From positions 1 to 48,180 of the forward strand of contig CAUJGQ010000029.1 of the NCBI GenBank assembly GCA_963170165.1: 48,180 nt of DNA, read 5' to 3'. The translations under genes and the position numbers were made by a program. Source of the DNA: Chloroflexota bacterium (GTDB lineage: Bacteria > Chloroflexota > Dehalococcoidia > CAUJGQ01). The first letter of the stretch is position 1. The number at the start of each line of letters is the position of its first letter. Positions 3,886-17,878 of the stretch are shown piece after piece. Below the pieces are notes generated by a model, which was given only the letters and a program-made list of their open reading frames with translations, searched no databases and was not told the DNA's origin.

Positions 3886-4746
3886 TCATACCACACCGGT
3901 GACGGCGATCATCGGCTGGGTGAACGCCAGTTGGTCGCCGGTATCATACCGGCGCAGAGCAGCCAGCACCTCTGCTTCTACCGCCGCCCGCTCAACCGCG
4001 GACAGCTGCTCCAGCAGCGATGTCAGACCGGTGGCGTGATCGGGCAGGGAACGCCAGTACTCTTCCGGTGTGCCCGGCCAGGGCGAGGGCACGGTCAGCA
4101 CACCTTCCTCTACCTGCGAAAAGCCGGCCGCGCGCATCAGGGCGGCAAACACCCCTGGGGCAGCGAAGCGATACGGGCTGGGGTAGCCGGGCGCCGGCGA
4201 TGTGGCGGTTACGTAGCGCAGTACGACCCCGGCCGTACACATGAACGCCGGCGTCTGTGCGGGCGGCCCCAGCACGGTGAACGCCGCCCGGCCTCCAGGC
4301 CGCAGCAGCCGCCGCGCCTCGCACAGCGCCGCCGGGGCGTTGGGAAAGTGCATGGCGGCGAACCGGCAGGTCACCCGGTCAAAGACCGCGCTGGGGAACG
4401 GCAAACGCTCAGCGTCGGCGGCGGCAAACGCGATGCGCAGGTGCGGCTCCTCGGCCGCGCAGGCGCGCGCCACGGCCAGCATCTCCGGCGCGAGATCGGT
4501 CACCGTCACCTGCCCCTCCGGCCCTACCCGCCGCGCCAGTGGCAGACCCGGCTCGCCCGCTCCACCAGCCAGGTCCAGCACCCGCTGGCCGGAATGGATA
4601 TCCGCCGCCAGCAGCAGCACTTCGGTGGCAGCGCGCCCCGCCACGAGAAAGTGGTGCTTCCAGCGCTGCCAGCCGGCGGCCGCCTGAGCATAGCCGGCGC
4701 GCACGGCGCTCTTGGCCATCTGCTGCTGTTGTGTGCTCGTCATCAT
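3886..4746 (-). CDS. class I SAM-dependent methyltransferase, last gene of RiPP cluster
   Basis: 286 residues. Motif I VLDLAGGAGEPG at residues 56-67 binds SAM; VTVTDLAPEML follows as the acidic strand-2 loop, then FAAADAERLPFPSAVFDRVTCRF as motifs II/III and LLRPGGRAAFTVLGP as the post-III strand. This arrangement is that of the UbiE/Methyltransf_11 group acting on small molecules or peptides. The C-terminal third (PEEYWRSLPDHATG to the end) is probably the substrate cap. The gene starts 33 bp after the upstream P450 stop and is the last of the minus-strand run beginning at 11893, so I infer an O-, N- or C-methylation of the matured peptide, distinct from the B12 radical SAM methylation. A housekeeping quinone methyltransferase is possible but the context argues against it. 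Confidence 0.88.
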   Translation of the reverse strand: MMTSTQQQQMAKSAVRAGYAQAAAGWQRWKHHFLVAGRAATEVLLLAADIHSGQRVLDLAGGAGEPGLPLARRVGPEGQVTVTDLAPEMLAVARACAAEEPHLRIAFAAADAERLPFPSAVFDRVTCRFAAMHFPNAPAALCEARRLLRPGGRAAFTVLGPPAQTPAFMCTAGVVLRYVTATSPAPGYPSPYRFAAPGVFAALMRAAGFSQVEEGVLTVPSPWPGTPEEYWRSLPDHATGLTSLLEQLSAVERAAVEAEVLAALRRYDTGDQLAFTQPMIAVTGVV

Positions 4747-4779
4747 TGCCCCTGCCGTCCTGCTCGCCCGTGGCCCGCG

Positions 4780-6120
4780 CTACTCCCCGGCCAGCCTCAC
4801 CGGCAGATCCACCAGCCCGCGGATGTTGCGCTCCTCGCGCCAGTGCATTTCCCTTGGCTCCAGCGCCAGCTGGGGGAATCGCTCACGCAGCGCCGCCAGC
4901 GTCAGCGTCAACGTCAGCCGCGCCACGCCCGCGCCCGGGCACACGTGAATGCCCGCGCCGAAGCCGATATGCGGGTTGGGCCGCCGGTCCAGCCGTAGTG
5001 TCTCCGGCTCGCCAAAGCGCTCTGGGTCCCGGTTGGCCGCGGCCAGCAGCAATATCACCCGCGAGCCGGCGGGGATGGTCTGGTGACCGATGCTGATATC
5101 AGCAGCAGCGGTACGCCCCACCAGGGAGGAGACAGCGGTCCAGCGCAGCAGTTCCTGTACCGCCAGCGGCAGCGCGGCGGGCGTCAGATGCTGCCATGCG
5201 CCGGGGATGGATAGTAGCGTCCACACCGACAGCGCGACCGCATGGCGTACATTCTCGTGCGAGCCCAGCGCCACCAGCAGGCACAGCGAGGCGATCTCAC
5301 CGTCACCCAGCCCTGCCGTCCGCGTCAACGCCGTCACCATGTCATCGCCCCGAGCGCCGCGCCGGGTCCGCGCCAGCTCTGCCAGGTAGGCAGACAGCGC
5401 TGTCACGGCAGCATCGCCGCGCCGCATCGCCGCCAGCGTCGCCCCCTGCTCCGCCAGCGCTCCAGCAATCGCCTCAATGTTGGTGTCGTACCAGCTATGC
5501 CCTGCCGCGGGGATGTCCAGCAGCGCGCGGGTGATGGCCGGCGGCAGCGGCGCTGCCAGTTCTGCCACGAGGTCCACCCGGTCACGACCTGCGAGCCGAT
5601 CCAGCAGTTCGGCGACGATTGCGGCGATCCGCGGGCGGAAGCCCGCCACACGCTCCGGCGACAGGGCGGCGGCAAAGGCGCGGCGCAGCCGGGTATGCTC
5701 GGGCGGATCGATCTGGTTGAGCGCCCCCGCAATAAAGGCGGTGTAGCGCGCCACCTCCGGCTGCTGCGCCGGGGGCACCGCGCCCATCACCACCTCGTAC
5801 GCCCCGCGCGAGGACAACCGCGGGTCGTGCAGCAGCGCCACCACGTCGCGGTAGCGCGTCACTACCCAGGCGTTCGCGGCGGCGCTGTAATGAACCGGGT
5901 TCTCCTCACGCAGGCGGCGATAGTGTGGGTGTGGCTGTGCGTGCACGCCGGGTAGATACGGGTTGTACTGGATCGGGCAGGTCTCAGCCATCCCGGCCGC
6001 GATCAGCAGCCGCTCCAGCGCCGCCCGCTCGGCGTCGGGCAGCGTGTCGCGCAGGGCGCCCAATCGCTCCAGCACGGCCGCTACCTCGGACATCGAGACG
6101 CGGGCGTGGCCGCCGTTCAT
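4780..6120 (-). CDS. cytochrome P450 A with precursor-leader-like N-terminus and atypical I-helix
   Basis: 446 residues. Start taken at the ATG at 6120 because it overlaps the stop of the preceding P450 as ATGA, implying translational coupling. Heme-binding loop FGAGIHVCPG places the thiolate Cys at residue 394; the ExxR pair is in AVQELLRW; PNPHIGF precedes the Cys loop. In the I-helix, where most P450s have (A/G)Gx(D/E)T, this protein reads LGSHENVRH, so the oxygen-activating Thr is replaced by Asn. The first ~47 residues before the usual bacterial start (YNPYLPGVHAQPHPHYRRLREE) are extra and align without gaps to the leader of the two precursor peptides downstream of the radical SAM gene (RVSMSEV, then RL, LP and LL at the same spacing). 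Likely soluble, fed by ferredoxin/ferredoxin reductase encoded elsewhere. Confidence 0.93.
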   Translation of the reverse strand: MNGGHARVSMSEVAAVLERLGALRDTLPDAERAALERLLIAAGMAETCPIQYNPYLPGVHAQPHPHYRRLREENPVHYSAAANAWVVTRYRDVVALLHDPRLSSRGAYEVVMGAVPPAQQPEVARYTAFIAGALNQIDPPEHTRLRRAFAAALSPERVAGFRPRIAAIVAELLDRLAGRDRVDLVAELAAPLPPAITRALLDIPAAGHSWYDTNIEAIAGALAEQGATLAAMRRGDAAVTALSAYLAELARTRRGARGDDMVTALTRTAGLGDGEIASLCLLVALGSHENVRHAVALSVWTLLSIPGAWQHLTPAALPLAVQELLRWTAVSSLVGRTAAADISIGHQTIPAGSRVILLLAAANRDPERFGEPETLRLDRRPNPHIGFGAGIHVCPGAGVARLTLTLTLAALRERFPQLALEPREMHWREERNIRGLVDLPVRLAGE

Positions 6121-7487
6121 CGCGGCGCTCCCGCCACCACTTCCGCGCCACGTGCCACCGGCAGCGACACCAGGCCGCGCAGGTTCCCTTCCTCGCGCCA
6201 CACCGGCGGTCCCGCCAGGCGGAGGTCAGGATACCGGGCGATGAGCGCGCTCAGCGCCGCCCCCGCCGCCACCCGCGCCAGCGCTGCCCCTGGGCAGGTA
6301 TGGATGCCCGCGCCAAAGGCAATGTGCGGGTTTGGCCGCCGCTCGATATCCAGTGTGTCCGCTTCAGTGAAGCGCTCGGGATCACGGTTGGCCGCACCCA
6401 GCAGCATCATCACCTGCTGCCCGGCGCGCACCGGGCAACCGGCGACCTCAGCGTCCTCACGCGCCGTGCGCTGGATGATGGGCGAGATCACGTCGTAGCG
6501 TAGCAACTCCTCCACCGCGCCCGGCACCAGCGCCGGATCAGCGGCCAGGCGGGAGTAGGCACCGGGGGCGCTGAGCAACGAGTGCAACCCCACCGCCACC
6601 ACCTGGCGCACCGTCTCGTAGATGCCCATCAGGAACTGGATGGTGAGGGTGATCACCTCGTCGTCGGTGGCGCCGGGTTCGGCTAGCATGGCGCTGATGG
6701 CGTCATCGCCCGGAATGGCGCGCCGATTGGCCACGACCTCACGGAAGTACTGCACCAACTGTGGCACTGCCGCCTCACCGCGCCGCATCGCCTCGGTGCC
6801 GGCAAAGCCCTCACTGAAGGTAAGGATCACCGCCGCGCCCCAATCGAGGATCTGGTCTCGGTCGGCCGCGGGGATGTCCAGCATCTCGACGGCGATCAGC
6901 AGCGGTAGGGGGATAGCGAAGTCATCCAGCATGTCAAAGCGCGGGCGGTCGCCGATGGCGTCCAGCAGCCCTGCGACCGTTCGCTGAATGGCGGGGCGGC
7001 GGGCCGTGACCTGGGGGGTGGCCAGCGCGCGGGCAGCAATGCGTCGCAGGTGGGTGTGCACAGGCGGATCCTGCTGGTTAAGCGTGCTGGTGATGAACGT
7101 CGCCACGGTGCGTACGCCGGCGCGCTCCTCCTCGGGGATCATCGTCATCAGCCCTTCGAGATTGCCCTGCGAGGACAAACGCGGGTCCTTGAAGGCAGCC
7201 AGCACGTCGGCGTAACGCGTCAGCACCCAGGCCCGGGTGGCCGTGCTGTAGTGCGCCGGATTATGCTCGCGCAGCGCCTGATAGTGCGGGTGAGGATCGG
7301 TGTGCACGCCCGGCAGAAAGGGGTTGTACTGCGGCGGGTTGGTCTCCGCCACACCGGCGGCGCGCAGCAGCTCCTCCAGCGCTGCCGCCTGGCCGGGGGG
7401 CAGTTCGGCCCGCATCGCCTGGAGCCGGCCGATGGTTGAGCCGATGGCGGTCATGGTCACGCGCGGGCTATGCGGCGTATCAGTCAT
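6117..7487 (-). CDS. cytochrome P450 B with precursor-leader-like N-terminus
   Basis: 456 residues from the ATG at 7487; the frame is open further up to 7673 but runs into the hairpin region and low-likeness sequence. Heme loop FGAGIHTCPG puts the Cys at residue 398; ExxR in AVEELLRYD; I-helix MGIYETVRQ keeps the Glu-Thr pair, unlike its neighbour. The two P450s are clearly paralogous (shared YNPxLPGVHxxPHPHY, DPRLSS, REExNxRGLVxLPV near the end). Residues 9-47 are an extension that aligns with the precursor leaders: RVTMTAI matches RVTGTDI of precursor 1 and the later Leu/Leu-Pro/Leu-Leu positions coincide. Role inferred from position: hydroxylation or oxidative crosslinking of the peptide product, perhaps recruited through the shared helix. 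Its stop overlaps the start of P450 A. Confidence 0.93.
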   Translation of the reverse strand: MTDTPHSPRVTMTAIGSTIGRLQAMRAELPPGQAAALEELLRAAGVAETNPPQYNPFLPGVHTDPHPHYQALREHNPAHYSTATRAWVLTRYADVLAAFKDPRLSSQGNLEGLMTMIPEEERAGVRTVATFITSTLNQQDPPVHTHLRRIAARALATPQVTARRPAIQRTVAGLLDAIGDRPRFDMLDDFAIPLPLLIAVEMLDIPAADRDQILDWGAAVILTFSEGFAGTEAMRRGEAAVPQLVQYFREVVANRRAIPGDDAISAMLAEPGATDDEVITLTIQFLMGIYETVRQVVAVGLHSLLSAPGAYSRLAADPALVPGAVEELLRYDVISPIIQRTAREDAEVAGCPVRAGQQVMMLLGAANRDPERFTEADTLDIERRPNPHIAFGAGIHTCPGAALARVAAGAALSALIARYPDLRLAGPPVWREEGNLRGLVSLPVARGAEVVAGAPR

Positions 7488-7550
7488 GGGCCGGACACCT
7501 TCTGGAAACGATGCAGCATGCTGAACGGCAGATGAAGGGGCGCGTGGATG

Positions 7551-7620
7551 CCCCTCGCCCCCAGCCCCCTCGCCCGCAGGTCGCCGTCTCGGCAGGTCCG
7601 GGAGCCGGGGGAGTGAGGGG
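7551..7620. repeat. imperfect GC-rich inverted repeat between precursor 1 and P450 B
   Basis: Left arm CCCCTCGCCCCCAGCCCC (7551-7568) pairs imperfectly with GGAGCCGGGGGAGTGAGGGG (7601-7620). It lies in the only sizeable gap (169 bp) between the precursor genes and the P450s. A structure here could stop most transcripts after the highly expressed precursor genes and let a minor fraction read into the enzyme genes, or stabilise the upstream mRNA. There is no T-run. The same kind of CCCCTC/GAGGGG palindrome recurs at 10477 and 10544, so it may just be a dispersed repeat family. Confidence 0.45.
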
Positions 7621-7656
7621 ACGTCTCCTCTGTCCCCTTCTCCCTGTGGCCAGTAT

Positions 7657-7962
7657 CTAGAACATGACACCAACGCCCACGACGACGCTGACGCCGGCGA
7701 GCTGGCCGGGGTTGAGGCGGGCGAGTTGTTGCGCGCCTAGGCTCTGATACAGGGGTTGCCTGCCCAGGGCGGAGGCGCCGGCGGCGTACTGACTGAAATA
7801 GCCACTGACCTCGTTGTCAACGGGCGCGGCAGCGGCACGCTCCATTAGCCAGCCCAGGACAGCCTGTTCGCTCTCCGGCAACGACGCACCGAAGCTCTTC
7901 AGTTTCTCGTCGAGGGCGGCGATGTCGGTGCCGGTGACGCGCACCTCGCGCTCATCGCTCAT
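7657..7962 (-). CDS. putative RiPP precursor peptide 1
   Basis: 101 residues, ATG at 7962 with GAGGAG about 8 nt upstream. Three parts are visible. A charged leader, residues 1-47 (RVTGTDIAALDEKL, SLPE, VLGWLMERAAAAP), likely a helix. A middle segment VSGYFSQ and a Gly/Ala/Gln-rich linker. A C-terminal tail LGAQQLARLNPGQLAGVSV followed by VVGVGVMF, almost purely hydrophobic and beta-branched. The neighbouring paralogue keeps leader pattern, GYFSQ, PxYxxLGAxQ and the tail, while the linker between varies in length. No Cys is present, so lanthionine or sactionine chemistry is excluded; Val/Ile/Met/Phe are good substrates for radical C-methylation or hydroxylation. It lies two genes after a RiPP-maturation radical SAM gene. 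That it is a precursor is inference from context and layout; I know no named family for it. Confidence 0.75.
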   Translation of the reverse strand: MSDEREVRVTGTDIAALDEKLKSFGASLPESEQAVLGWLMERAAAAPVDNEVSGYFSQYAAGASALGRQPLYQSLGAQQLARLNPGQLAGVSVVVGVGVMF

Positions 7963-8018
7963 GTTGCAGCTCCTCGCTGGTGGCGGGACGGATGCCGGTG
8001 CCTCCGCCCCGCCGTGCG

Positions 8019-8327
8019 CTAGAACATGACGCCGACGACGATGCTGACGCCCGCCAGCACGCCGGGGTTGATCGGACCGATCTGCGACGCCCCCAGCCCG
8101 CGATAGGCCGGCGAGCGCAGCAAGGCGCTGCTCTGGAACTGCTGTGAGCCGAGCTGGCTGAAGTACCCCGCCACGTCGGAGTCAGCGGGCGCCTCCGAAG
8201 CGCGCTGGATCAGCCAGCCCATGACGTTCTTCTCGTTCTCCGGCAGCGAATCCTCAAACTGCACAAGCTTCTCGTTGAGGCTCTGGATGTCGTTGCCGGT
8301 GATCCGAACTTGCTTGGTCTCGCTCAT
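8019..8327 (-). CDS. putative RiPP precursor peptide 2
   Basis: 102 residues. ATG at 8327 chosen because MSETKQVRITGNDI then aligns with MSDEREVRVTGTDI of precursor 1; the frame upstream to 8435 has no counterpart. Leader features: KL at 20-21, SLPE at 27-30, VMGWLIQRA, EAP. Then DVAGYFSQ, a Gln/Ser-rich linker and the tail YRGLGASQIGPINPGVLAGV followed by SIVVGVMF. Relative to precursor 1 the tail lacks one Gly-Val pair (VVGVMF against VVGVGVMF) and the linker differs in length, as expected for paralogous precursors in which leader and core are constrained and the linker is not. Again no Cys. It starts 101 bp after the radical SAM stop and is followed by precursor 1 after 56 bp, so these three are likely co-transcribed. 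Confidence 0.75.
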   Translation of the reverse strand: MSETKQVRITGNDIQSLNEKLVQFEDSLPENEKNVMGWLIQRASEAPADSDVAGYFSQLGSQQFQSSALLRSPAYRGLGASQIGPINPGVLAGVSIVVGVMF

Positions 8328-8428
8328 GACCTGGATTTCCCCTCTCCCTTGCTGCCGGCTAGGCCGGTCGTGCCGCTGAAATACCACCGGTATTGGCCGA
8401 TAACGCCTCCTTGCTGGCCGGGGGCCGC

Positions 8429-10306
8429 TCACCAATTGGGATTCGCGGGCAACGCCAGACTGAAATAATGTCCGTCCTCTTCCAGCATCAGCCCCCGCTC
8501 GACAAAGGTGTCGAGGTCGCGGCGAACGGATGCGAGGTCGGTGTCACAACCCTGGGCGCGCAGGCCGTCCAGCACCTGGGGCGCGCCACGGGCGGCGAGG
8601 GCGCAGCACTCATACACTAGCGCCGCACGCTCGTCATACATCATCACCTCGGGCGCGGCGGGAGTGCGCCCATCAATCATCGTCAGGCGGCCGGCGCCGC
8701 GCTGATACGTCAGGAACGGGACGGCATTGCTCTTCCAGGAGTCCTTCCACCCCCGCACGAACGCCTCCGTCGCATGGTGCACGCAGTCGGGCAGCGTGCC
8801 GGGCGCGTCATACTCCCAGAAGTAGGCGATGCGCTCGCGGTCGATGTACTCCGGGTAGATGTGCGCGTACGTGGCCTCCGGCCGGACGTTGGTGAAGCCG
8901 GCCTCCGCTGCACGAGTGAAGTAGGGCGAGTAGCGCTCCAGCCAGATGCGGCCGATACCGGACGGCGGCTGCAGGTGGGAGATGCGGCGCAGCCACTCCA
9001 GCTCGCGGTCGTAATCCTCCGCGTGTTCGCCGGGAAAGCCGTAGAGCAGATTCCAGGAGACGCGCATCCCATAGTACTGCGCCCACTTCATCATGCGCAC
9101 ATTCTGCAGGCCGGTGGTGCCCTTGTTCATCAAGCGCAACACCGGCGTGCTCAGGCTCTCGATGCCAGGTTGCAGGTGGCGAACGCCGCCCCGTGCCATC
9201 GCCTTGAGCTGCTCCGGAGTGAGGTTGGCCTTCACCTCATAGAAGAACGTGTAGTCCTTGCGCTGCTCACTCAGCGGCCCGAACACCTCGGTCACATAGC
9301 GGCGGTCCATGATGTTGTCGACCGCCTCGAAGGCGTAGACATGGTGGCGCGCTGCCAGCGTGTCGATATCGGCGAGGGCACGGGCCGGGGACTTGCTGCG
9401 AAAGGCCATACCGGAGCCGTTCAGCCCGCAGAAGGTGCAGTGGTGCTTGGCGCCCCACCAGCAGCCCCGCGCCGTTTCAATGGGCAGCAGCACCGGCAGC
9501 CCGCGGGCCGTGCGCGGCACTTTGCGGCGGGCCGCCTCCGCGAAGAACGAGTTGTAGGCAGGGACCGGCAGCGCATCCATCTCCTGCACCGCTGGCGCCC
9601 GTCCACCGTAATCGACCGTGCCGTCCGGCAGCCGGCGGGCCACGCCGGCCATACTCAGCGGCTCCTCGCCACGGCTCAGCCGCTGGAGCAGCGCCGGGAA
9701 CACCTCATCTCCCTCACCGATAACGGCGTAATCGATCCACGGCACCGTGCGCACGAACTCCAGCCCCATTTCGTCGTCGAAGTTGGAGCCGCCGAACACG
9801 ATGGTGAGATGGGGATGGCGCTCCTTCAACAGTCGCGCCAGCGCCAGCGCCGCGCAGTTCTGTTCGAAGACGGAGCCGAACCCGACGACGTCGTAGTTCA
9901 GCCACGACGTCGCATCAAGGCAACTTTCCAGGAAGATTGGCACGAGCTCTGCACGCAGGCCGGCCAGCCAGGCGCGGTCTTTGCCCATCTGCGTCAGCGC
10001 CTCATCGAGGGTAGTGGCGTAGCGCTCCAGATACGGCGCGGGCGCGGGGGCGCACTCGCCCCAGGCCATCCCGGCAAACAGCCATTCGCCCACCATGTGC
10101 AGGCGGTTATGGCACAGCAGCTCGTAGTCATCCCAACCCAGCCGTTCGGCGAACGCCAGGTTGAAGTTGTGCGTATCGACCACCGTCCCTGCCTGCTCCG
10201 CCGCCGCATGCAGCAGCCCGAGCTGGATCGAGGGATAGCGCGCCGAGGCAAACGGCATGTTCACCAGGGCAAGACGCAACGGACCGCGGGTAGCATGGCG
10301 CTCCAT
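8429..10306 (-). CDS. B12-binding radical SAM RiPP maturation protein (rSAM_ocin_1 type)
   Basis: 625 residues from the ATG at 10306, which has GGAGGT five bases upstream; in-frame TTG 10333 and ATG 10318 are possible but lack such a site. Domains: N-terminal cobalamin-binding-like region (~10-240; ALVNMPF, YDVVGFGSVFEQN, IVFGGSNFDDEMG, VIGEGDEVFPALLQRL), then the radical SAM core opening with TARGCWWGAKHHCTFCGLNG. The cluster cysteines are C282, C290 and C293 (CX7CX2C instead of CX3CX2C), with GMAFRSKSP after; this signature is the one I associate with 'RiPP maturation radical SAM protein 1'. A C-terminal ~90-residue segment may be a winged-helix peptide-binding domain. Expected chemistry: methyl transfer from methylcobalamin to unactivated carbons (for example Val, Ile, Phe) of a peptide. 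The two candidate precursors are the next genes. Confidence 0.92.
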   Translation of the reverse strand: MERHATRGPLRLALVNMPFASARYPSIQLGLLHAAAEQAGTVVDTHNFNLAFAERLGWDDYELLCHNRLHMVGEWLFAGMAWGECAPAPAPYLERYATTLDEALTQMGKDRAWLAGLRAELVPIFLESCLDATSWLNYDVVGFGSVFEQNCAALALARLLKERHPHLTIVFGGSNFDDEMGLEFVRTVPWIDYAVIGEGDEVFPALLQRLSRGEEPLSMAGVARRLPDGTVDYGGRAPAVQEMDALPVPAYNSFFAEAARRKVPRTARGLPVLLPIETARGCWWGAKHHCTFCGLNGSGMAFRSKSPARALADIDTLAARHHVYAFEAVDNIMDRRYVTEVFGPLSEQRKDYTFFYEVKANLTPEQLKAMARGGVRHLQPGIESLSTPVLRLMNKGTTGLQNVRMMKWAQYYGMRVSWNLLYGFPGEHAEDYDRELEWLRRISHLQPPSGIGRIWLERYSPYFTRAAEAGFTNVRPEATYAHIYPEYIDRERIAYFWEYDAPGTLPDCVHHATEAFVRGWKDSWKSNAVPFLTYQRGAGRLTMIDGRTPAAPEVMMYDERAALVYECCALAARGAPQVLDGLRAQGCDTDLASVRRDLDTFVERGLMLEEDGHYFSLALPANPNW

Positions 10307-10476
10307 GCAGACCTCCATCGCGGGACAAGACAAGCGTCAGAACGCGGAGGGACGCTCGCGAACCATACGGCATGGGCGGGAAGGTTACAACACGGTGGGT
10401 GGTGCCGAGGTGTAATCTAGGCAACATTCGGGTGTGAGACTGTCGCAGCCGCGACACAGTTACCAAGCAGCTACGG

Positions 10477-10499
10477 CCTCTCCCGCAAAGCGGGAGAGG
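10477..10499. repeat. perfect hairpin CCTCTCCCGC-AAA-GCGGGAGAGG
   Basis: Ten-base perfect arms with a three-base loop in the 297-bp gap between the LLM and radical SAM genes. It shares its core CTCTCCCGC/GCGGGAGAG with the hairpin at 10544, so the two are copies of one REP-like palindrome rather than unrelated terminators. No T-run follows on either strand. It could protect or attenuate the cluster transcript. Confidence 0.8.
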
Positions 10500-10543
10500 G
10501 AGTCTGGCCCTTCCGGAGAACAACAGGAAATGGAGGCAGAACA

Positions 10544-10572
10544 CCCCCTCTCCCGCTACGCGGGAGAGGGGG
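10544..10572. repeat. perfect hairpin with 13-base arms, second copy
   Basis: CCCCCTCTCCCGC (10544-10556), loop TAC, GCGGGAGAGGGGG (10560-10572), ending 31 bp before the LLM stop codon. Together with the copy at 10477 it fills the gap between the LLM and radical SAM genes. The rest of the gap (10307-10476) shows no gene; a short 6-bp palindrome TGTCGCAGCCGCGACA is at 10441-10456. Confidence 0.8.
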
Positions 10573-10603
10573 CCGGGGGGCGCGGGCTCCCCGCGGCGGA
10601 TCG

Positions 10604-11893
10604 CTACATCGAGCGGACAATCTCGCGCAGACGGCGCATACGCTCGGCGCGCTGGCGCTGGGCCTCGGGAAGCTTGTCGAGGTCCACCTCGGCAATGTTG
10701 AAGCCGTACGCCTGATAGGCGGGGAGATCGTCGCCGGCTAGCTCCTGCATGCGCTGTTTGCGGGCGAGTGCCGCCTCGACATACGGCGCCAGCTCGTCCA
10801 TCTTGCGGCGCTGGCGCTCCTCCTCTTGCTCTTTGAATTCCCCCATCACCTCGCCAGCGAACAACTCCAGCGCCTCGCAGATGTGCTCGTGCTTGTTCTT
10901 GCCCCCCTGCTGGATGAATACCGTGGCATCGACGCCCGAGTCAGCGAAGGAGCGCAGGTGTGCACGCATCTCGGCCGGTGTGCCGATGCCACCGGTGCCG
11001 CCGCCCAGGAAGTCCATCCCCATCTTGTCGCGCACCGCTTCGTACATCGCCCAAATGTCCGTGCGGCCGGGGCGGTGCTCGCCGAAGTTGTAGTGGTGGC
11101 CCAGGGCGAACTGAAAGAAGCGGAAGCCGTCCATGCCACGGCGTACTGCCTCATCGTGGTCCTGATGGATGGAGAAGCTGGTGACCATGGCGATATTGGG
11201 GTTGACGGCATGGCCAACCGGCACACACTCCCGCTTGAAGGTCTCGTAGTAGTCGTCTACCCAGTGCTTGGCCTCGGCCGGATCAATGAACGCGAAGGTC
11301 AACGCGCCGATACCCAGCTGCGCTGCCAGGTGAATCGTGTCGCGGTTGGAGCAGGCCACCCAGATCGGCGGGTGGGGCTTTTGCACCGGCTTGGGCACCA
11401 CGTTGCGCACCGGCATCGAGAAGAACTGGCCCTGGTAGCCCGGATAGGGATCCATCGCCAGCATGTTCGCCACCTGCTCGGTGGTCTCCCGCCACATGGC
11501 GCGGCGCTGGCTAGGGTCAATGCCGAACCCCTCCAGCTCAGCACGCGAGGCGCTCTCACCCGTGCCCCACTCAACGCGGCCGTTGGATACCAGGTCCAGC
11601 GTGGCGATGCGCTCGGCGATGCGCGCGGGCGCATTGTAGGCAGGGGGCATCAGCACGATGCCATGGCCCAGGCGGATCTGCTTGGTGCGCTGGGATGCCG
11701 CTGCCAAAAACACTTCCGGCGCGGCTGAGTGGCTGTACTCCTCCAGGAAGTGATGCTCCACCTCCCAGGCGTAGTCGATGCCCAGCCGGTCGGCCAGCTC
11801 CACCTGCGACAGCGCATCCTGGAACAGCTTCAGTTCGTCGCCATCATTCCAGGGCCGGGGCAACTGGTGTTCGTAGAAGATGCCGAACTTCAT
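10604..11893 (-). CDS. LLM class flavin-dependent oxidoreductase (luciferase-like)
   Basis: 429 residues from the ATG at 11893; the frame extends to 12217 without likeness. The fold of bacterial-luciferase-type monooxygenases is evident: MKFGIFYEHQ strand, YAWEVEHHFLEEYSHSAAPEV, the IRLGHGIVLMPPAYNAPARIAERIATLDLVSNGRVEWGTGES region that contacts FMN, PHPPIWVACSNRDTI, and GGIGTPAEMRAHLRSFADSGVD near the end. A helical, highly charged C-terminal extension of about 90 residues (EFKEQEEERQRRKMDELAPYVEAALARKQ) follows. It uses reduced flavin, supplied by a separate reductase. It is the first gene of the minus-strand run and so probably part of the RiPP cluster, although similar proteins are also common as stand-alone genes in this kind of genome. 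Confidence 0.88.
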   Translation of the reverse strand: MKFGIFYEHQLPRPWNDGDELKLFQDALSQVELADRLGIDYAWEVEHHFLEEYSHSAAPEVFLAAASQRTKQIRLGHGIVLMPPAYNAPARIAERIATLDLVSNGRVEWGTGESASRAELEGFGIDPSQRRAMWRETTEQVANMLAMDPYPGYQGQFFSMPVRNVVPKPVQKPHPPIWVACSNRDTIHLAAQLGIGALTFAFIDPAEAKHWVDDYYETFKRECVPVGHAVNPNIAMVTSFSIHQDHDEAVRRGMDGFRFFQFALGHHYNFGEHRPGRTDIWAMYEAVRDKMGMDFLGGGTGGIGTPAEMRAHLRSFADSGVDATVFIQQGGKNKHEHICEALELFAGEVMGEFKEQEEERQRRKMDELAPYVEAALARKQRMQELAGDDLPAYQAYGFNIAEVDLDKLPEAQRQRAERMRRLREIVRSM

Positions 11894-12004
11894 GACGAGG
11901 CGCTTCCTTTCCTGACCGACCGAAGCCGGCCGGTCATCGGCCCGCGGGGCAGACCGATGACCGACGTTTCGGCGGCAACACTCTCCATCCCCGAAGATGT
12001 GGGA

Positions 12005-12033
12005 AGCATGGAAACGCCGCGCGACAGTGTCAA
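12005..12033 (-). promoter_or_regulatory. candidate sigma70-type promoter of the RiPP cluster
   Basis: Minus strand: -35 TTGACA (12033-12028, perfect), 17-bp spacer, -10 CATGCT (12010-12005, weak). Transcription would begin near 11998, giving an untranslated leader of about 105 bases before the LLM start. It lies between the cytochrome b stop and the LLM start, the right place to start the 11893-to-3886 gene run. Confidence 0.45.
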
Positions 12034-12057
12034 GCGAACGGTTTTTTGCGGAAACGC

Positions 12058-12714
12058 CTATCGCAACAGGCGGTAGTTCGTCAGCAACAGCACCGCACCG
12101 CCACTGACCAGGTAGAGCCACTGCATGGCGGATGCTCCGGTGCTGCTGCCGGCCATCACGCCGTGCGCCGTGGCCAGCGCGAACAGGGCGAAAGCGCTGT
12201 AGTGCAACAGCCGCCAAGCACGCTGGCCAATGCGCGCCCGTAGCCGGAAACTGACGGTGATCGCCACGGCCAGGTACAGCGATACGGTCCCCAGCGCCAT
12301 GGCCAGCGGCGCATACGGCGCCAGGCCGGGGATCAGCAGCGACAGCGGGGTGAAGCCGCTGTGGCTATCCTGCAATAGCAACACGACGTGCAGGCCGGTG
12401 GCGGCCAGCGCCAGCCACGACAGATACTCGTGCAGTGCAAACACCACGGCCCGCGACGCCCACCGGTCCAGGAGGCGGGTGCTGATGCTCAGTCCGAGCA
12501 GCGTGCTGCCTGCAAGCAAGAGGTAGGCGACAATGCCGGCCGCACGGCTGAGCGTCCAAGGCAGCTTCAGCAGCAGGCTCTCGCCGGCGCCGCGCAACGT
12601 CAGGTCAATCACGGCCAGCAGCGCCAGCGCCGCGCCTGCCCCCAGCACAAACGCGGCCGCGCCGCCCCAACCACTCGGACGCTGCTGCGCGTCGATTTGT
12701 TCACGTGCGGTCAT
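12058..12714 (-). CDS. ferric-reductase-like transmembrane cytochrome b protein
   Basis: 218 residues, about six hydrophobic helices. After a polar N-terminus the first helix is around 18-40; histidines in two helices, HEYLSWLALAATGLH and LLHYSAFALFALATAH, are spaced as the bis-heme b ligands of the ferric reductase/NOX-like fold. The loop before the last helix reads HGVMAGSSTGASAMQW. It carries no FAD/NAD domain, so it would pass electrons across the membrane between partners. Its ATG overlaps the end of the ApbE gene by 14 bases, so the two are coupled. In Actinomycetota and Chloroflexota similar small cytochromes are found with ApbE and a two-component system; here that gene order is kept. 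Confidence 0.85.
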   Translation of the reverse strand: MTAREQIDAQQRPSGWGGAAAFVLGAGAALALLAVIDLTLRGAGESLLLKLPWTLSRAAGIVAYLLLAGSTLLGLSISTRLLDRWASRAVVFALHEYLSWLALAATGLHVVLLLQDSHSGFTPLSLLIPGLAPYAPLAMALGTVSLYLAVAITVSFRLRARIGQRAWRLLHYSAFALFALATAHGVMAGSSTGASAMQWLYLVSGGAVLLLTNYRLLR

Positions 12715-13807
12715 GATGCCCCCGTCCTTGCGTTCCCATCAGCCGCCATCCGGCGGCGGCCGTCCCGACAAATGCCGGCGGTCCGGCAGGTGGGACCAGC
12801 ACGGCCGCCAGCGCTGGTGTCAGCACCACCGTCTGCCGCGCCCGTTCCCGGCCTAACAGCAGCAGCACCTTGGTCACCACCTCGGCCGTCGTTGCCGAGG
12901 GCGCAACCACGGTGACCGCCGCCAGGTCAACCGCCGCCGGCGCGCCTGTACGCGGGTCAATCAGGTGATGGCGCGCCTGTCCGCCGCTCTGCCAGCGCCG
13001 CCGCGTCACCCCCGAGGTCGCCACCCCGCCGCCACGCACCCCCAGCAATCCCAGCGCCGGGCCGCCGCGCGGACTATCCACTTCGATTTCCCAGTCCGGT
13101 ACGCTCGCGGCCAGCGGCGACAGGGCGATGTCGCCCCCCAGGTCGGCCAGCGCGGGCCCGTGGCGCGCCAACCGCCGCACGACCACATCCGCCAGCCACC
13201 CCTTGGCAATCCCGCCGAGGTCCAGCGCCACCCCTGCCGGGAGCATCACCGTTCGCGTCTGCGGTTCGAGCTGCACCCGCTCGTAGTCGGGTGTCCGGCA
13301 TCCTGCGGCGCCCTCCTTCCCCATCTGGCACGAAGCTCCGGCGAGGAGCGCGGGGATTGGCGTCACGCTGCTGCCTGCGACCTTTTGCCGGCTGCCGTTC
13401 CGCGCTCGGCGCCGTCTGCCCGGCAGATCGCCGCTCAGCTTCCCGGCATCGTTGCTCTCGCCGGATGCCTGGGCATCTAAGAGTGACCGGAAGTCGCGGT
13501 CATACCCGGCAGCGAGCAATGCGTGATACACGGTGGGGTCGAACAGGCCGCCGGTCGCGCGGGCTGCCGTGACGGCCGCCTCGATCACCCCGAACGTCAC
13601 CGGAGAAACGCGCACCGGGCGACCGGCGGCGTGGTTCAGGCGCGACAGCTCGCTGCCGGGGTCGAACCGCGACAGCCGCCGCTCGGCACGCCGCAGGAAG
13701 GCGATAGCACGGCAAAGCGCCGCCTCCGCCCGGGTCCGCGCGGGTGGCCGCGGCCACACCTGCAGCGTCACATCGGTGCCAAATGCCGGGAACGATTGGC
13801 TGAGCAT
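12701..13807 (-). CDS. apbE: FAD:protein FMN transferase (ApbE family) with an in-frame insertion
   Basis: 368 residues from the ATG at 13807 (a GTG at 13810 is equally placed). ApbE transfers FMN from FAD to Thr/Ser of extracytoplasmic redox proteins, with Mg2+. Family motifs: FGTDVTLQV at the start, RRLSRFDPGSELSRLN, TGGLFDPTVYHALLAAGYDRDF, DLGGIAKGWLAD, ADLGGDIALS, HHLIDPRTGAP and TAEVVTK. No signal peptide or lipobox is evident. Between YDRDFRSL and YERVQLEP there is a segment of ~63 residues (about 13289-13477) rich in Arg, Gly and Ser that normal family members, about 300 residues long, do not need; it keeps the frame. The gene is followed by the cytochrome b gene with overlap and preceded by the small membrane protein by 7-10 bp. 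Confidence 0.88.
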   Translation of the reverse strand: MLSQSFPAFGTDVTLQVWPRPPARTRAEAALCRAIAFLRRAERRLSRFDPGSELSRLNHAAGRPVRVSPVTFGVIEAAVTAARATGGLFDPTVYHALLAAGYDRDFRSLLDAQASGESNDAGKLSGDLPGRRRRARNGSRQKVAGSSVTPIPALLAGASCQMGKEGAAGCRTPDYERVQLEPQTRTVMLPAGVALDLGGIAKGWLADVVVRRLARHGPALADLGGDIALSPLAASVPDWEIEVDSPRGGPALGLLGVRGGGVATSGVTRRRWQSGGQARHHLIDPRTGAPAAVDLAAVTVVAPSATTAEVVTKVLLLLGRERARQTVVLTPALAAVLVPPAGPPAFVGTAAAGWRLMGTQGRGHHDRT

Positions 13808-13816
13808 CACGCCGCC

Positions 13817-14065
13817 TCACGACTGTCGGGTGCGCACCCGCCGAACCGGTTGGGCGGCACGTGGCGTAGTGGCGGAGACCTCCGCCGGGGCGCTGAGCGC
13901 CGGTGGCTGCTCAATCGGTGTACTGGCAGCGCCGGGCCCCACACCGCTGCCCGCCGGTAGTGTCGCGGCGATCAGCCCGAACGCTCCCAGCATTACTCCC
14001 AGGCTGGCCGCTGTCGCCCGCTGCTTCAGCGCCCGGTTGCGCTGGGCCCGCGCATTAGTCGTCAT
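13817..14065 (-). CDS. small single-span membrane protein of the redox module
   Basis: 82 residues from the ATG at 14065. A basic N-terminus (NARAQRNRALKQR) precedes one hydrophobic segment (AASLGVMLGAFGLIAATL), then a Pro/Ala/Ser-rich tail ending VRRVRTRQS. Its start lies inside the end of the Asp-rich gene, so the pair is translationally coupled, and ApbE follows within 10 bp. Comparable small one-helix proteins sit beside ApbE/ferric-reductase genes in Actinomycetota as I remember them; function unknown. The tail segment EVSATT is only remotely like an ApbE acceptor motif and I would not rely on it. Confidence 0.65.
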   Translation of the reverse strand: MTTNARAQRNRALKQRATAASLGVMLGAFGLIAATLPAGSGVGPGAASTPIEQPPALSAPAEVSATTPRAAQPVRRVRTRQS

Positions 14066-14339
14066 CGTCTTCGTCGTCATCGTCCCGCTCCCGGCTGTGC
14101 CGGCGCTCGCGCCGGTCATCGTCATCGTCGTCGTCGTGGCGGCGGACGCGCTCCAGGGCCGGAGCCCCTGCATCAGCCGCCGGCGCCCCTTCGGTCACGA
14201 CCGCCGGCGCCGCCTGCCAGTGCTCTTCGTCCTCGCCCCCGATGCCGAACCCTCCGCCCCGCGCGCCCAGCCCCACGACTCCGGCCAGCACGACCGCCGT
14301 CAGCGCCCCGGCGGCGGCCATCGCATACGGTCCTTTCAT
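14055..14339 (-). CDS. small membrane-anchored protein with Asp-rich C-terminus
   Basis: 94 residues, ATG at 14339. One N-terminal hydrophobic segment (~7-26, AAAGALTAVVLAGVVGL) could be an anchor or uncleaved signal. The remainder would be outside the membrane and ends in two acidic blocks: His then seven Asp at 69-75 and nearly all Asp at 86-94, separated by Arg/His (DRRERRHSRER). Such a tail is a plausible divalent cation or iron binding segment. First gene of the minus-strand redox operon, immediately next to the repeats at 14388 and divergent from the two-component system whose sensor loop carries a similar acidic patch. No family recognised. Confidence 0.7.
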   Translation of the reverse strand: MKGPYAMAAAGALTAVVLAGVVGLGARGGGFGIGGEDEEHWQAAPAVVTEGAPAADAGAPALERVRRHDDDDDDDRRERRHSRERDDDDEDDDD

Positions 14340-14387
14340 CTCGCGCTCCTGCTGCTGTGCTTGTGAGATTCACGCTACGCAGCGGGC

Positions 14388-14427
14388 ATGAGAGCATCCT
14401 GAGCGGACGATGAGAGTTCTCTCATGG
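14388..14427 (+). promoter_or_regulatory. candidate OmpR/PhoB-type operator in divergent region
   Basis: Heptamers ATGAGAG (14388), CTGAGCG (14399) and ATGAGAG (14410) are spaced exactly 11 bp apart with 4-bp gaps, the arrangement recognised by head-to-tail dimers of OmpR/PhoB regulators. The last copy also forms a perfect 16-bp palindrome ATGAGAGTTCTCTCAT (14410-14425). It lies between the Asp-rich gene (minus) and the response regulator (plus), so it could control both operons and autoregulate. Confidence 0.55.
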
Positions 14428-14470
14428 TGGGAGCCGGCCGGCGCGCTACGCTGGCGGCGAGGGTGATGGC

Positions 14471-15142
14471 ATGCGGGTGCTGGTGGTTGAAGACGAACCA
14501 CGACTGGCACGGATGTTGCGGCGGGCGCTGGAGGATGAGCGCCACAGTGTCGATACCGCCGCCACCGGGCCGGACGGCGAGGCGATGGCGCGCGCCGGTG
14601 ACTACGACGCCATCGTGCTCGACGTGATGCTCCCCGGCCGCGACGGATTCGCCGTGTGCCGCAACCTCCGCGCAGAGGGAAACCCCACCCCAGTGCTGAT
14701 GCTCACGGCCCGTGATGCCGTTGATGACCGCGTGCGCGGACTGGATGCCGGCGCCGATGACTACCTGGTCAAGCCGTTCGCACTAGCCGAGCTGCTGGCG
14801 CGGCTGCGGGCGCTGGGGCGGCGGCGGACAGGAACCGCGCCGGCCACCACGCTGGAACTGGGCGGCCTGCACATGGACTTGGTGCGTCGTGAGGTACGCC
14901 GAGACGGCCGCCTGATCGAGCTAACCCCGCGTGAGTACGACCTGCTCGCCTTCTTCCTGCGCCACCCCGGACATGTGCTCAGCCGCACCCAGCTCTTGGA
15001 CGGGGTGTGGCAGTACGACGCGGAGGTCACGTCCAACGTCGTAGATATCTACATCCACTATCTGCGCGACAAAATCGACAAGGGCTTTGCGCCCAAGCTG
15101 CTGCACACCGTGCGCGGTGCGGGGTATGTGCTGCGCATATGA
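14471..15142 (+). CDS. OmpR/PhoB-family response regulator
   Basis: 223 residues. Receiver domain 1-115: acidic pair EDE at 7-9, phospho-acceptor Asp51 in IVLDVMLPGRDGF, Thr in MLTARD and Lys in DYLVKPF. Winged-helix DNA-binding domain ~125-223: ELTPREYDLLAFFLRHPGHVLSR, then VVDIYIHYLRDKIDKG and HTVRGAGYVLRI at the end, all standard for the subfamily. Start at 14471 has GAGGG 8 nt upstream. The stop overlaps the kinase start as ATGA, so they are co-translated. Expected to bind the 11-bp repeats just upstream and regulate the redox operon on the other strand. Confidence 0.96.
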   Translation: MRVLVVEDEPRLARMLRRALEDERHSVDTAATGPDGEAMARAGDYDAIVLDVMLPGRDGFAVCRNLRAEGNPTPVLMLTARDAVDDRVRGLDAGADDYLVKPFALAELLARLRALGRRRTGTAPATTLELGGLHMDLVRREVRRDGRLIELTPREYDLLAFFLRHPGHVLSRTQLLDGVWQYDAEVTSNVVDIYIHYLRDKIDKGFAPKLLHTVRGAGYVLRI

Positions 15143-16545: not shown

Positions 16546-17878
16546 CCACCATCGCGCGGCGCGCCAGCAAATAAGCGGCGGCGGCCTCGAGCGCGGGATC
16601 GCCCGGGGCGCTGCGCGTCACCAGCTCGTCGGGTTCCACACCTGGTCCGTCCACAGCGCGCTGCAACGGGCCGGCCAGCAGCCGGGCGCTGGTAATCACC
16701 ATCGCCGAGCCGTCCGCCAGTTCGGTGAGCGTGCCGGCATTGGCGCAGCCACTGGTGCGCTGACCGACGATGCGAGCCCGGCCCGTATCCTGCAACACCG
16801 CGGCAACGATCTCGGCGCCGGAGGCGCTCTGCGGCCCGACGAGCACGGCCATTGGCCGCTGCACCGCCAGCGCCGGGCCGATGGGCATCGCCTCCACCGG
16901 CGCCCGGCCGCGCTGTGCGGTCGTGATCGCCGGGATCTCGCGGGCGGTAAACAAGCCAAGCACGCGCAGCACGCTGGTCACCGAGCCGCCGGGGTTGTAG
17001 CGCAGGTCCAGCACCCACGCGGTTGCGCCCTGTTCTTCCAGTTCCAGCAGTGCGGCCCGCGTTTGCCGCTCGGTCGTGCCGTCGATGGCGAAGGTGCTGA
17101 TTGTAACGACGCCAATGCCATCCGGACGTAGCGCATGGGCCACCGCAGGGACATGCACCACGCCGCGGATGACCGTGATGAGGCGCGCTTCCAGCTCGCC
17201 GGCCCGCGCCACGGTGAACGACACTGGTGTGCCCGCCTCCCCGGCGATGCGGGAGCGCAGCGAGGCCGGCGTGTGCTCGGCGGCCGGCACACCGTCGATC
17301 GCCAAAATCACGTCGCCGGCCAGCAGTCCGGCCCGCTCGGCCGGGCTATCGGGAATGACACGGGTGATGGTGTAGGGAGATGTCGATGAAATCGAGATGC
17401 CAGCACCAACGAACCGCTGCTGTCCATCCAGTTGCTGGCGGAAGGCGGTGTAGCGCGCAGGGGTCAGGAAGTAGGTATGACACTCATTTCGTGCTTCGGT
17501 CATGGCGCCGATGGCGGTGTGGGCCAGGTCGCTGGGCAGAATCTGTCCGGCGACACGCCGTTCAAGCTCGGCGTAGCTCTCGGCGAAGAGCGCCCACGCC
17601 TCGCGCCGGCCGGCAGGCAGCGGCGGCAGAGCGGGCAGCCGGTCCACACCCGCGGCCAGCGCCGCGCCGGCCACCCCGCTCCACGCCTCCCCCAGCAGGG
17701 CCGCAGGATCCAGCGGGTCGACGTACAGGTTTAGCAGCCGGTCGTAAGCATCGCGCACCAGCAGCGCCCCAGCACGCTGCGCCTCGGCCGTGGGGGGGCG
17801 GGCGGGTAGCAGCACCGGTACCAGCGTAGCCAGCGCCAGGAGCATGAGCAGGGCAGCGCGGCGGACCCGGTGCCTCAT
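16535..17878 (-). CDS. S41-family (C-terminal-processing-like) PDZ protease, catalytic Lys replaced
   Basis: 447 residues from the ATG at 17878; RHRVRRAALLMLLALATLVP then looks like a signal peptide, so the protein is exported. Region ~35-150 is helical; the PDZ domain includes FVGAGISISS, ITRVIPDSPAERAGLLAGDVILAIDG and SLRSRIAGEAGTPVSF; the protease core contains IGVVTISTF, AWVLDLRYNPGG and GPQSASGAEIVAAVLQD. By alignment with Tsp/CtpA the nucleophile is Ser353 and the conserved Asp is Asp364, but where those enzymes have TFGKG this one has TSGCA, so the general base Lys is Cys378. It may be catalytically altered or belong to a Lys-less S41 subgroup. Stands alone; flanks a 134-bp spacer to the MaoC-like gene. 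Confidence 0.88.
   Translation of the reverse strand: MRHRVRRAALLMLLALATLVPVLLPARPPTAEAQRAGALLVRDAYDRLLNLYVDPLDPAALLGEAWSGVAGAALAAGVDRLPALPPLPAGRREAWALFAESYAELERRVAGQILPSDLAHTAIGAMTEARNECHTYFLTPARYTAFRQQLDGQQRFVGAGISISSTSPYTITRVIPDSPAERAGLLAGDVILAIDGVPAAEHTPASLRSRIAGEAGTPVSFTVARAGELEARLITVIRGVVHVPAVAHALRPDGIGVVTISTFAIDGTTERQTRAALLELEEQGATAWVLDLRYNPGGSVTSVLRVLGLFTAREIPAITTAQRGRAPVEAMPIGPALAVQRPMAVLVGPQSASGAEIVAAVLQDTGRARIVGQRTSGCANAGTLTELADGSAMVITSARLLAGPLQRAVDGPGVEPDELVTRSAPGDPALEAAAAYLLARRAMVGQP

Follow-up and report, generated by a model that had tools for sequence, protein, structure and literature searches.

A 48,180-nucleotide stretch of DNA from a Chloroflexota bacterium (contig CAUJGQ010000029.1, hereafter the window) carries, with an estimated probability of about 0.75, a real and rare biosynthetic unit for a ribosomally synthesized and post-translationally modified peptide (RiPP), featuring a PoyC-type methylase and cytochromes P450 with a leader-like hairpin. 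All genes of the unit are encoded on the minus strand and follow each other, in transcription order, as a B12-dependent radical S-adenosylmethionine (SAM) enzyme, called P0003, the precursor peptides A2 and A1, the cytochromes P450a and P450b, and a methyltransferase. The P450b start overlaps the P450a stop (ATGA). An earlier note, made from the sequence alone, had described seven same-strand genes with short gaps, including a luciferase-like (LLM) flavoenzyme gene upstream of the radical SAM gene. The seven open reading frames (ORFs), their strand and their coordinates were confirmed, but not the short gaps: the LLM gene is 297 bp away from the radical SAM gene, and as this interval contains a strong inverted repeat, the layout is read as six genes and one neighbour.

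A1 and A2 are 55% identical (BLASTP, 6e-39) and both are Cys-free, as the earlier note had reported for two paralogous peptides of about 100 residues next to a C-methylating type of radical SAM enzyme. Each features a leader-type hairpin at the N-terminus and a conserved Val/Ile-rich end at the C-terminus. The two peptides and their relatives in loci L013 (Kitasatospora sp. MAA19) and L014 (an actinobacterial metagenome-assembled genome, MAG) have 27 invariant positions; leader, an SLGxxQ..PG stretch (nearly conserved) and a C-terminus ending in VMF are common to the four. A1 and A2 matched no Pfam or NCBIfam model at E 0.1, hence the nitrile-hydratase-like leader of proteusins was not recognized in them. 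Homologues of the leader only do occur away from any radical SAM gene, a pattern which the earlier note had counted against a precursor role, whereas all retrieved homologues of full length that carry the VMF core adjoin one.

Approximately 85,000 species genomes were scanned for the radical SAM enzyme, and at least 79 loci were retrieved. In both actinobacterial genomes a short precursor with the conserved leader adjoins the modifying enzyme, as in the window. The Kitasatospora locus includes a first radical SAM gene (rSAM1, 10001-11848), the precursor (11950-12261), a P450 gene extending to 13729, a methyltransferase gene (13749-14633) and a second radical SAM gene (rSAM2) ending at 16576. 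In the MAG the unit is split over two contigs, which carry rSAM1, precursor and P450 (L014), and methyltransferase and rSAM2 (L015). Orthologues of the window methyltransferase follow the P450 in L013 (2.7e-73) and precede rSAM2 in L015. Radical SAM enzyme, VMF-ending precursor, P450 and methyltransferase are thus the set that homologous clusters keep, in line with the proposal of a RiPP cluster with a Val/Ile-rich C-terminal core; the LLM gene, placed in the same cluster by the earlier note, is not kept. Since the gene set is conserved across phyla, its association exceeds chance. The second enzyme accompanying the unit in Kitasatospora and in the MAG also belongs to TIGR03975. P0003 groups with both actinobacterial paralogues in the tree (support 91/64; 100/98 for the wider group including L016), and the rSAM1/rSAM2 duplication therefore appears to be later than the split from the window enzyme.

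P0003 matches TIGR03975 at full length (profile positions 2-606 of 606; 644.2 bits, 2e-193), well above the curated cut-off of 281.85. Its cysteine motif, C-WWGAKHH-C-TF-C, is the CX7CX2C signature of RiPP maturation, as earlier stated. PF04055 passes its threshold, and PF02310, the B12-binding domain, scores 31.7, just below the cut-off of 32.1. The AlphaFold2 (AF2) model (pLDDT 91.5) has the cobalamin-binding and radical SAM fold, and matches OxsB, TokK, TsrM and CysS at VIA Z ~20 over ~400 residues, mainly within residues 8-529. In the model, residues 532-616 are arranged as b-b-b-a-a-a-b-b. RiPP recognition elements (RREs) consist of three helices and a three-stranded sheet (PMC11117315), and the predicted C-terminal domain may be viewed as RRE-like. 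PoyC, which features the same CX7CX2C motif, methylates the Cbeta of valine in polytheonamide (PMC5682303; PMC11285071). The probable cores LAGVSVVVGVGVMF (A1) and LAGVSIVVGVMF (A2) are Val/Ile-rich and devoid of Cys, Tyr and Trp, and Cbeta-methylation of core Val/Ile is therefore the most likely reaction.

In both P450s of the window about 45 residues precede the P450 fold, and display the leader-like pattern ..I....KL..F...LP..E...L..LL..A. In the AF2 model of P450b these residues form helices at 10-24 and 29-41 (pLDDT ~62-83), followed by a low-confidence linker. The hairpin is present in 4/4 P450s of the unit type, and is missing from the P450s of the neighbouring loci L033 and L080. Comparison of the four P450 N-termini with the four leaders by hhalign scored 43.0; among 400 column-shuffled controls no score exceeded 15.9. 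A model made of the P450 hairpins only, run over 23,830 ORFs, ranked leader proteins in 7 of the 10 top non-P450 positions, the set including 36 distinct leader-family ORFs; leaders and P450 hairpins thus retrieve each other reciprocally, and an LPxxE turn motif is common to both. The P450 hairpin is accordingly regarded, on sequence grounds, as a probable homologue of the leader. That short amphipathic hairpins converged is an unlikely alternative explanation of the likeness. In its favour, the domain measures only ~35 residues, and the leader profile also picks up one histidine kinase at 2.6e-4, which shows that short hairpins can match by fold; but the shuffle control, the reciprocal retrieval, the turn motif and the distribution of the hairpin among P450s favour homology.

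The leader is not restricted to the cluster. Leader profiles retrieve small, mostly solitary proteins in the window's own genome (contigs C52, C26, C168, C64, C95, C138 and C37); in nearly all of them a [DE]VxG[YF]-like motif follows the hairpin, and the C-termini are unrelated. Profile A7 was built in part from these proteins, and their A7 scores are not independent; those obtained with earlier profiles are, except for the C52 member, included in A5. The genome G001, from the same family, has at least seven leader-family members. The scanned members, orphans included, have no Pfam or NCBIfam match, and such precursors are therefore likely missed by routine annotation. The leader defines, by sequence comparison, an unnamed family with putative orphan members in the window's own and in the sister genome. 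It could be argued that the hairpin proteins belong to a family of small proteins with a general role, as adaptors, regulators or secreted proteins, that the radical SAM enzyme has another substrate, and that the P450 hairpin is another adaptor copy. At least six members indeed stand alone among unrelated genes in the own genome, and G001, with its seven or more members, has no P0003-like radical SAM enzyme at E 1e-50. We consider this quite unlikely, since on G001 contig C22 (L158:3316-9897) a HemN/HutW-like radical SAM enzyme, a 271-aa unknown protein, a methyltransferase and a second radical SAM enzyme, of SPASM type, lie between two leader-family peptides, the same leader type directly precedes several actinobacterial TIGR03975 genes, and hypervariable C-termini behind a conserved leader are as found in RiPP precursor families. 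Both genomes also encode a putative metal-binding protein of the CxxCxxCC type (PF03692) beside leader-family peptides, of which G001 has a tandem of three (L157:6591-8094) and the own genome one (L161:5035-5738, contig C37); this may be another peptide-modifying pair.

Several observations weigh against a RiPP unit with leader-tagged P450s. Among the matches listed, the unit was found in only three genomes; further copies were sought in three genome sets, ~400 from the phylum of the host, 395 from the family of Kitasatospora and 396 from the phylum of the MAG, and none came to light. A last P450 search also gave none, but is uninformative, as it missed its own partial positive too. No peptidase or transporter was seen among the window genes of the cluster and its flanks. 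Leader-family proteins also stand alone among unrelated genes, as in loci L134, L135, L136, L137, L138 and L139, where they feature the [DE]VxG[YF]-like motif and unrelated C-termini. The P450a hairpin alone scores weakly against the leader profile (E 0.14), and the match of the histidine kinase must be added to the list. The RRE-like domain has been named from topology, and a PDB sequence search with the C-terminal domain gave nothing meaningful.

Taken as a RiPP pathway, the unit may work as follows. Precursors of ~100 residues would consist of a helical-hairpin leader, a conserved stretch similar to SLGxxQ...PG and a core that is rich in Val/Ile and ends in VMF. The radical SAM enzyme, whose C-terminal RRE-like domain probably grips the leader, would use SAM and methylcobalamin for PoyC-type methylation of Val and Ile in the core, at predicted sites on their unactivated Cbeta carbons. 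The two P450s, which appear to have acquired a leader-homologous N-terminal hairpin, would oxidize the core at sites, and in an order of steps, that are conjectural; biaryl cross-linking is unlikely because Phe is the sole aromatic residue in the core. The class I methyltransferase may cap a hydroxyl, carboxyl or amine, and leader removal and export would be supplied from elsewhere in the genome. As to the P450 hairpin, its most likely role is in recruitment: it would pair with the precursor leader or occupy the leader's site on the radical SAM enzyme. A more far-reaching proposal, which we advance tentatively, is that the P450s captured a copy of the leader as a new recruitment route, in a new leader family, where pairing between leaders, or mimicry of the leader at the RRE-like domain of the radical SAM enzyme, takes the place of an RRE on the P450, and that scattered orphan precursors may be modified in trans. 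If true, it offers a testable answer to how stand-alone P450s lacking an RRE locate their peptide. No paper describing RiPP enzymes with a fused leader-like domain was found in a literature search whose coverage mostly excluded subscription journals.

Table 1. Features of the RiPP unit and of its upstream neighbour in the window.
Feature	Position	Strand	Evidence
LLM flavoenzyme gene, neighbour	10604..11893	-	PF00296 4e-52
Inverted repeat, likely unit boundary	10476..10570		between LLM and radical SAM genes; fold z-score -5.42, 0/200 shuffles equally stable; repeat units present
B12-dependent radical SAM C-methyltransferase, 625 aa, CX7CX2C	8429..10306	-	TIGR03975 and AF2 model
Predicted C-terminal RRE-like winged-helix domain of the same, residues ~530-625	8432..8719	-	AF2 topology
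Precursor peptide A2, 102 aa	8019..8327	-	relatives beside radical SAM gene in L013 and L014
Probable core of A2, LAGVSIVVGVMF, predicted boundary	8022..8057	-	AG..V...VMF* conserved in four precursors
Precursor peptide A1, 101 aa	7657..7962	-	55% identical to A2
Probable core of A1, LAGVSVVVGVGVMF, predicted boundary	7660..7701	-	conserved C-terminus in four precursors
Cytochrome P450a, 456 aa	6117..7487	-	PF00067 4e-18; haem motif FGAGIHTCPG intact
Leader-like N-terminal hairpin of P450a	7338..7463	-	leader profile E 0.14 alone; profile-profile comparison
Cytochrome P450b, 446 aa	4780..6120	-	PF00067 5e-17; FGAGIHVCPG intact; AF2 pLDDT 80.9; P450 fold in PDB search
Leader-like N-terminal hairpin of P450b	5986..6102	-	leader profile E 6e-6 in own genome; AF2
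Class I SAM methyltransferase, UbiE-like, 286 aa	3886..4746	-	PF13649 8e-22

The LLM gene, the next one upstream on the same strand, probably lies outside the RiPP unit. The earlier note had made it a cluster member, and its product could in principle oxidize the core together with the P450s; we regard this as very improbable, and membership was rejected. The strong inverted repeat separates it from the radical SAM gene, it is absent from the L013, L014 and L015 clusters, and an 82% identical orthologue resides in G001, the relative lacking a P0003-like enzyme, where synteny with the window flanks is not kept. Moreover, the window's genome carries further LLM paralogues. The membership of the P450s and the methyltransferase, asserted in the same note, is sustained by their conservation in Kitasatospora and, over two contigs, in the MAG. 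GC-rich palindromes lie in both larger gaps of the region (7520-7650 and 10476-10570), and the latter, highly stable, resembles a repeated element. As read from the sequence, the region is flanked at one side by genes for a short-chain dehydrogenase and a Nudix-like protein, at the other by ferric-reductase-like and ApbE-like genes.

A second RiPP-like cluster marks the same genome, and is divided between contigs C112 (L005:11499-15001) and C151 (L006:1487-4725), the ends of which share an exact 75-base overlap. The order is TIGR03975 enzyme, precursor, two SPASM radical SAM enzymes, TIGR03975 enzyme, an arrangement which parallels the unit, SPASM enzymes replacing P450 and methyltransferase. 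In a Streptomyces globosus plasmid (L166), a TIGR03975 gene resides beside a pheganomycin-family precursor, an amidinotransferase, DpgABC genes and a P450.

The earlier note had stated that the combination of enzymes is not known, which is too broad. A B12 radical SAM enzyme, a P450 and a methyltransferase act on one peptide in the aminopyruvatide (apy) system (PMC11117315). The window unit differs in having no multinuclear non-haem iron oxidative enzyme (MNIO) among its genes and no Tyr in the core, and assignment to this class was rejected, as P0003 reaches only 84 bits with the ApyD model (cut-off 750), and P450b only 56 with the ApyO model (cut-off 525). Bottromycin biosynthesis has Cbeta-methylating radical SAM enzymes with the CX7CX2C motif, as well as a P450 and O-methylation (PMC5103208, PMC5682303), but the core is N-terminal and is trailed by a follower, whereas window precursors have an N-terminal leader and a C-terminal core; the unit has no YcaO among its genes, and was not assigned to bottromycins. 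Proteusins such as polytheonamide are similar in the B12 enzymes with CX7CX2C (PoyB, PoyC) Cbeta-methylating Val/Ile (PMC11285071, PMC5682303), and perhaps in the C-terminal RRE fusions identified by RRE-Finder (PMC7470986), of which the domain predicted here is reminiscent. In contrast to proteusins, the unit has no match to the defining nitrile-hydratase-like leader, which excludes the assignment, no dehydratase and no epimerase, and includes P450s. In clavusporins a B12 radical SAM enzyme also C-methylates the peptide, according to work cited in PMC12257519. Streptomyces clavuligerus has a TIGR03975 locus (L165), which we infer to be the clavusporin locus from its DUF5825 neighbour only, and which encodes an enzyme 35% identical to P0003; the unit has neither the DUF5825 partner nor the alpha/beta-hydrolase. 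In one study on sponges, TIGR03975 clusters were excluded as likely false positives (PMC9426513). What is new relative to known systems is the rare association of a PoyC-type methylase with leader-tagged P450s, and the leader-like P450 domain, rather than the LLM enzyme, is its most interesting part. If genuine, the unit adds this rare architecture to the known RiPPs.

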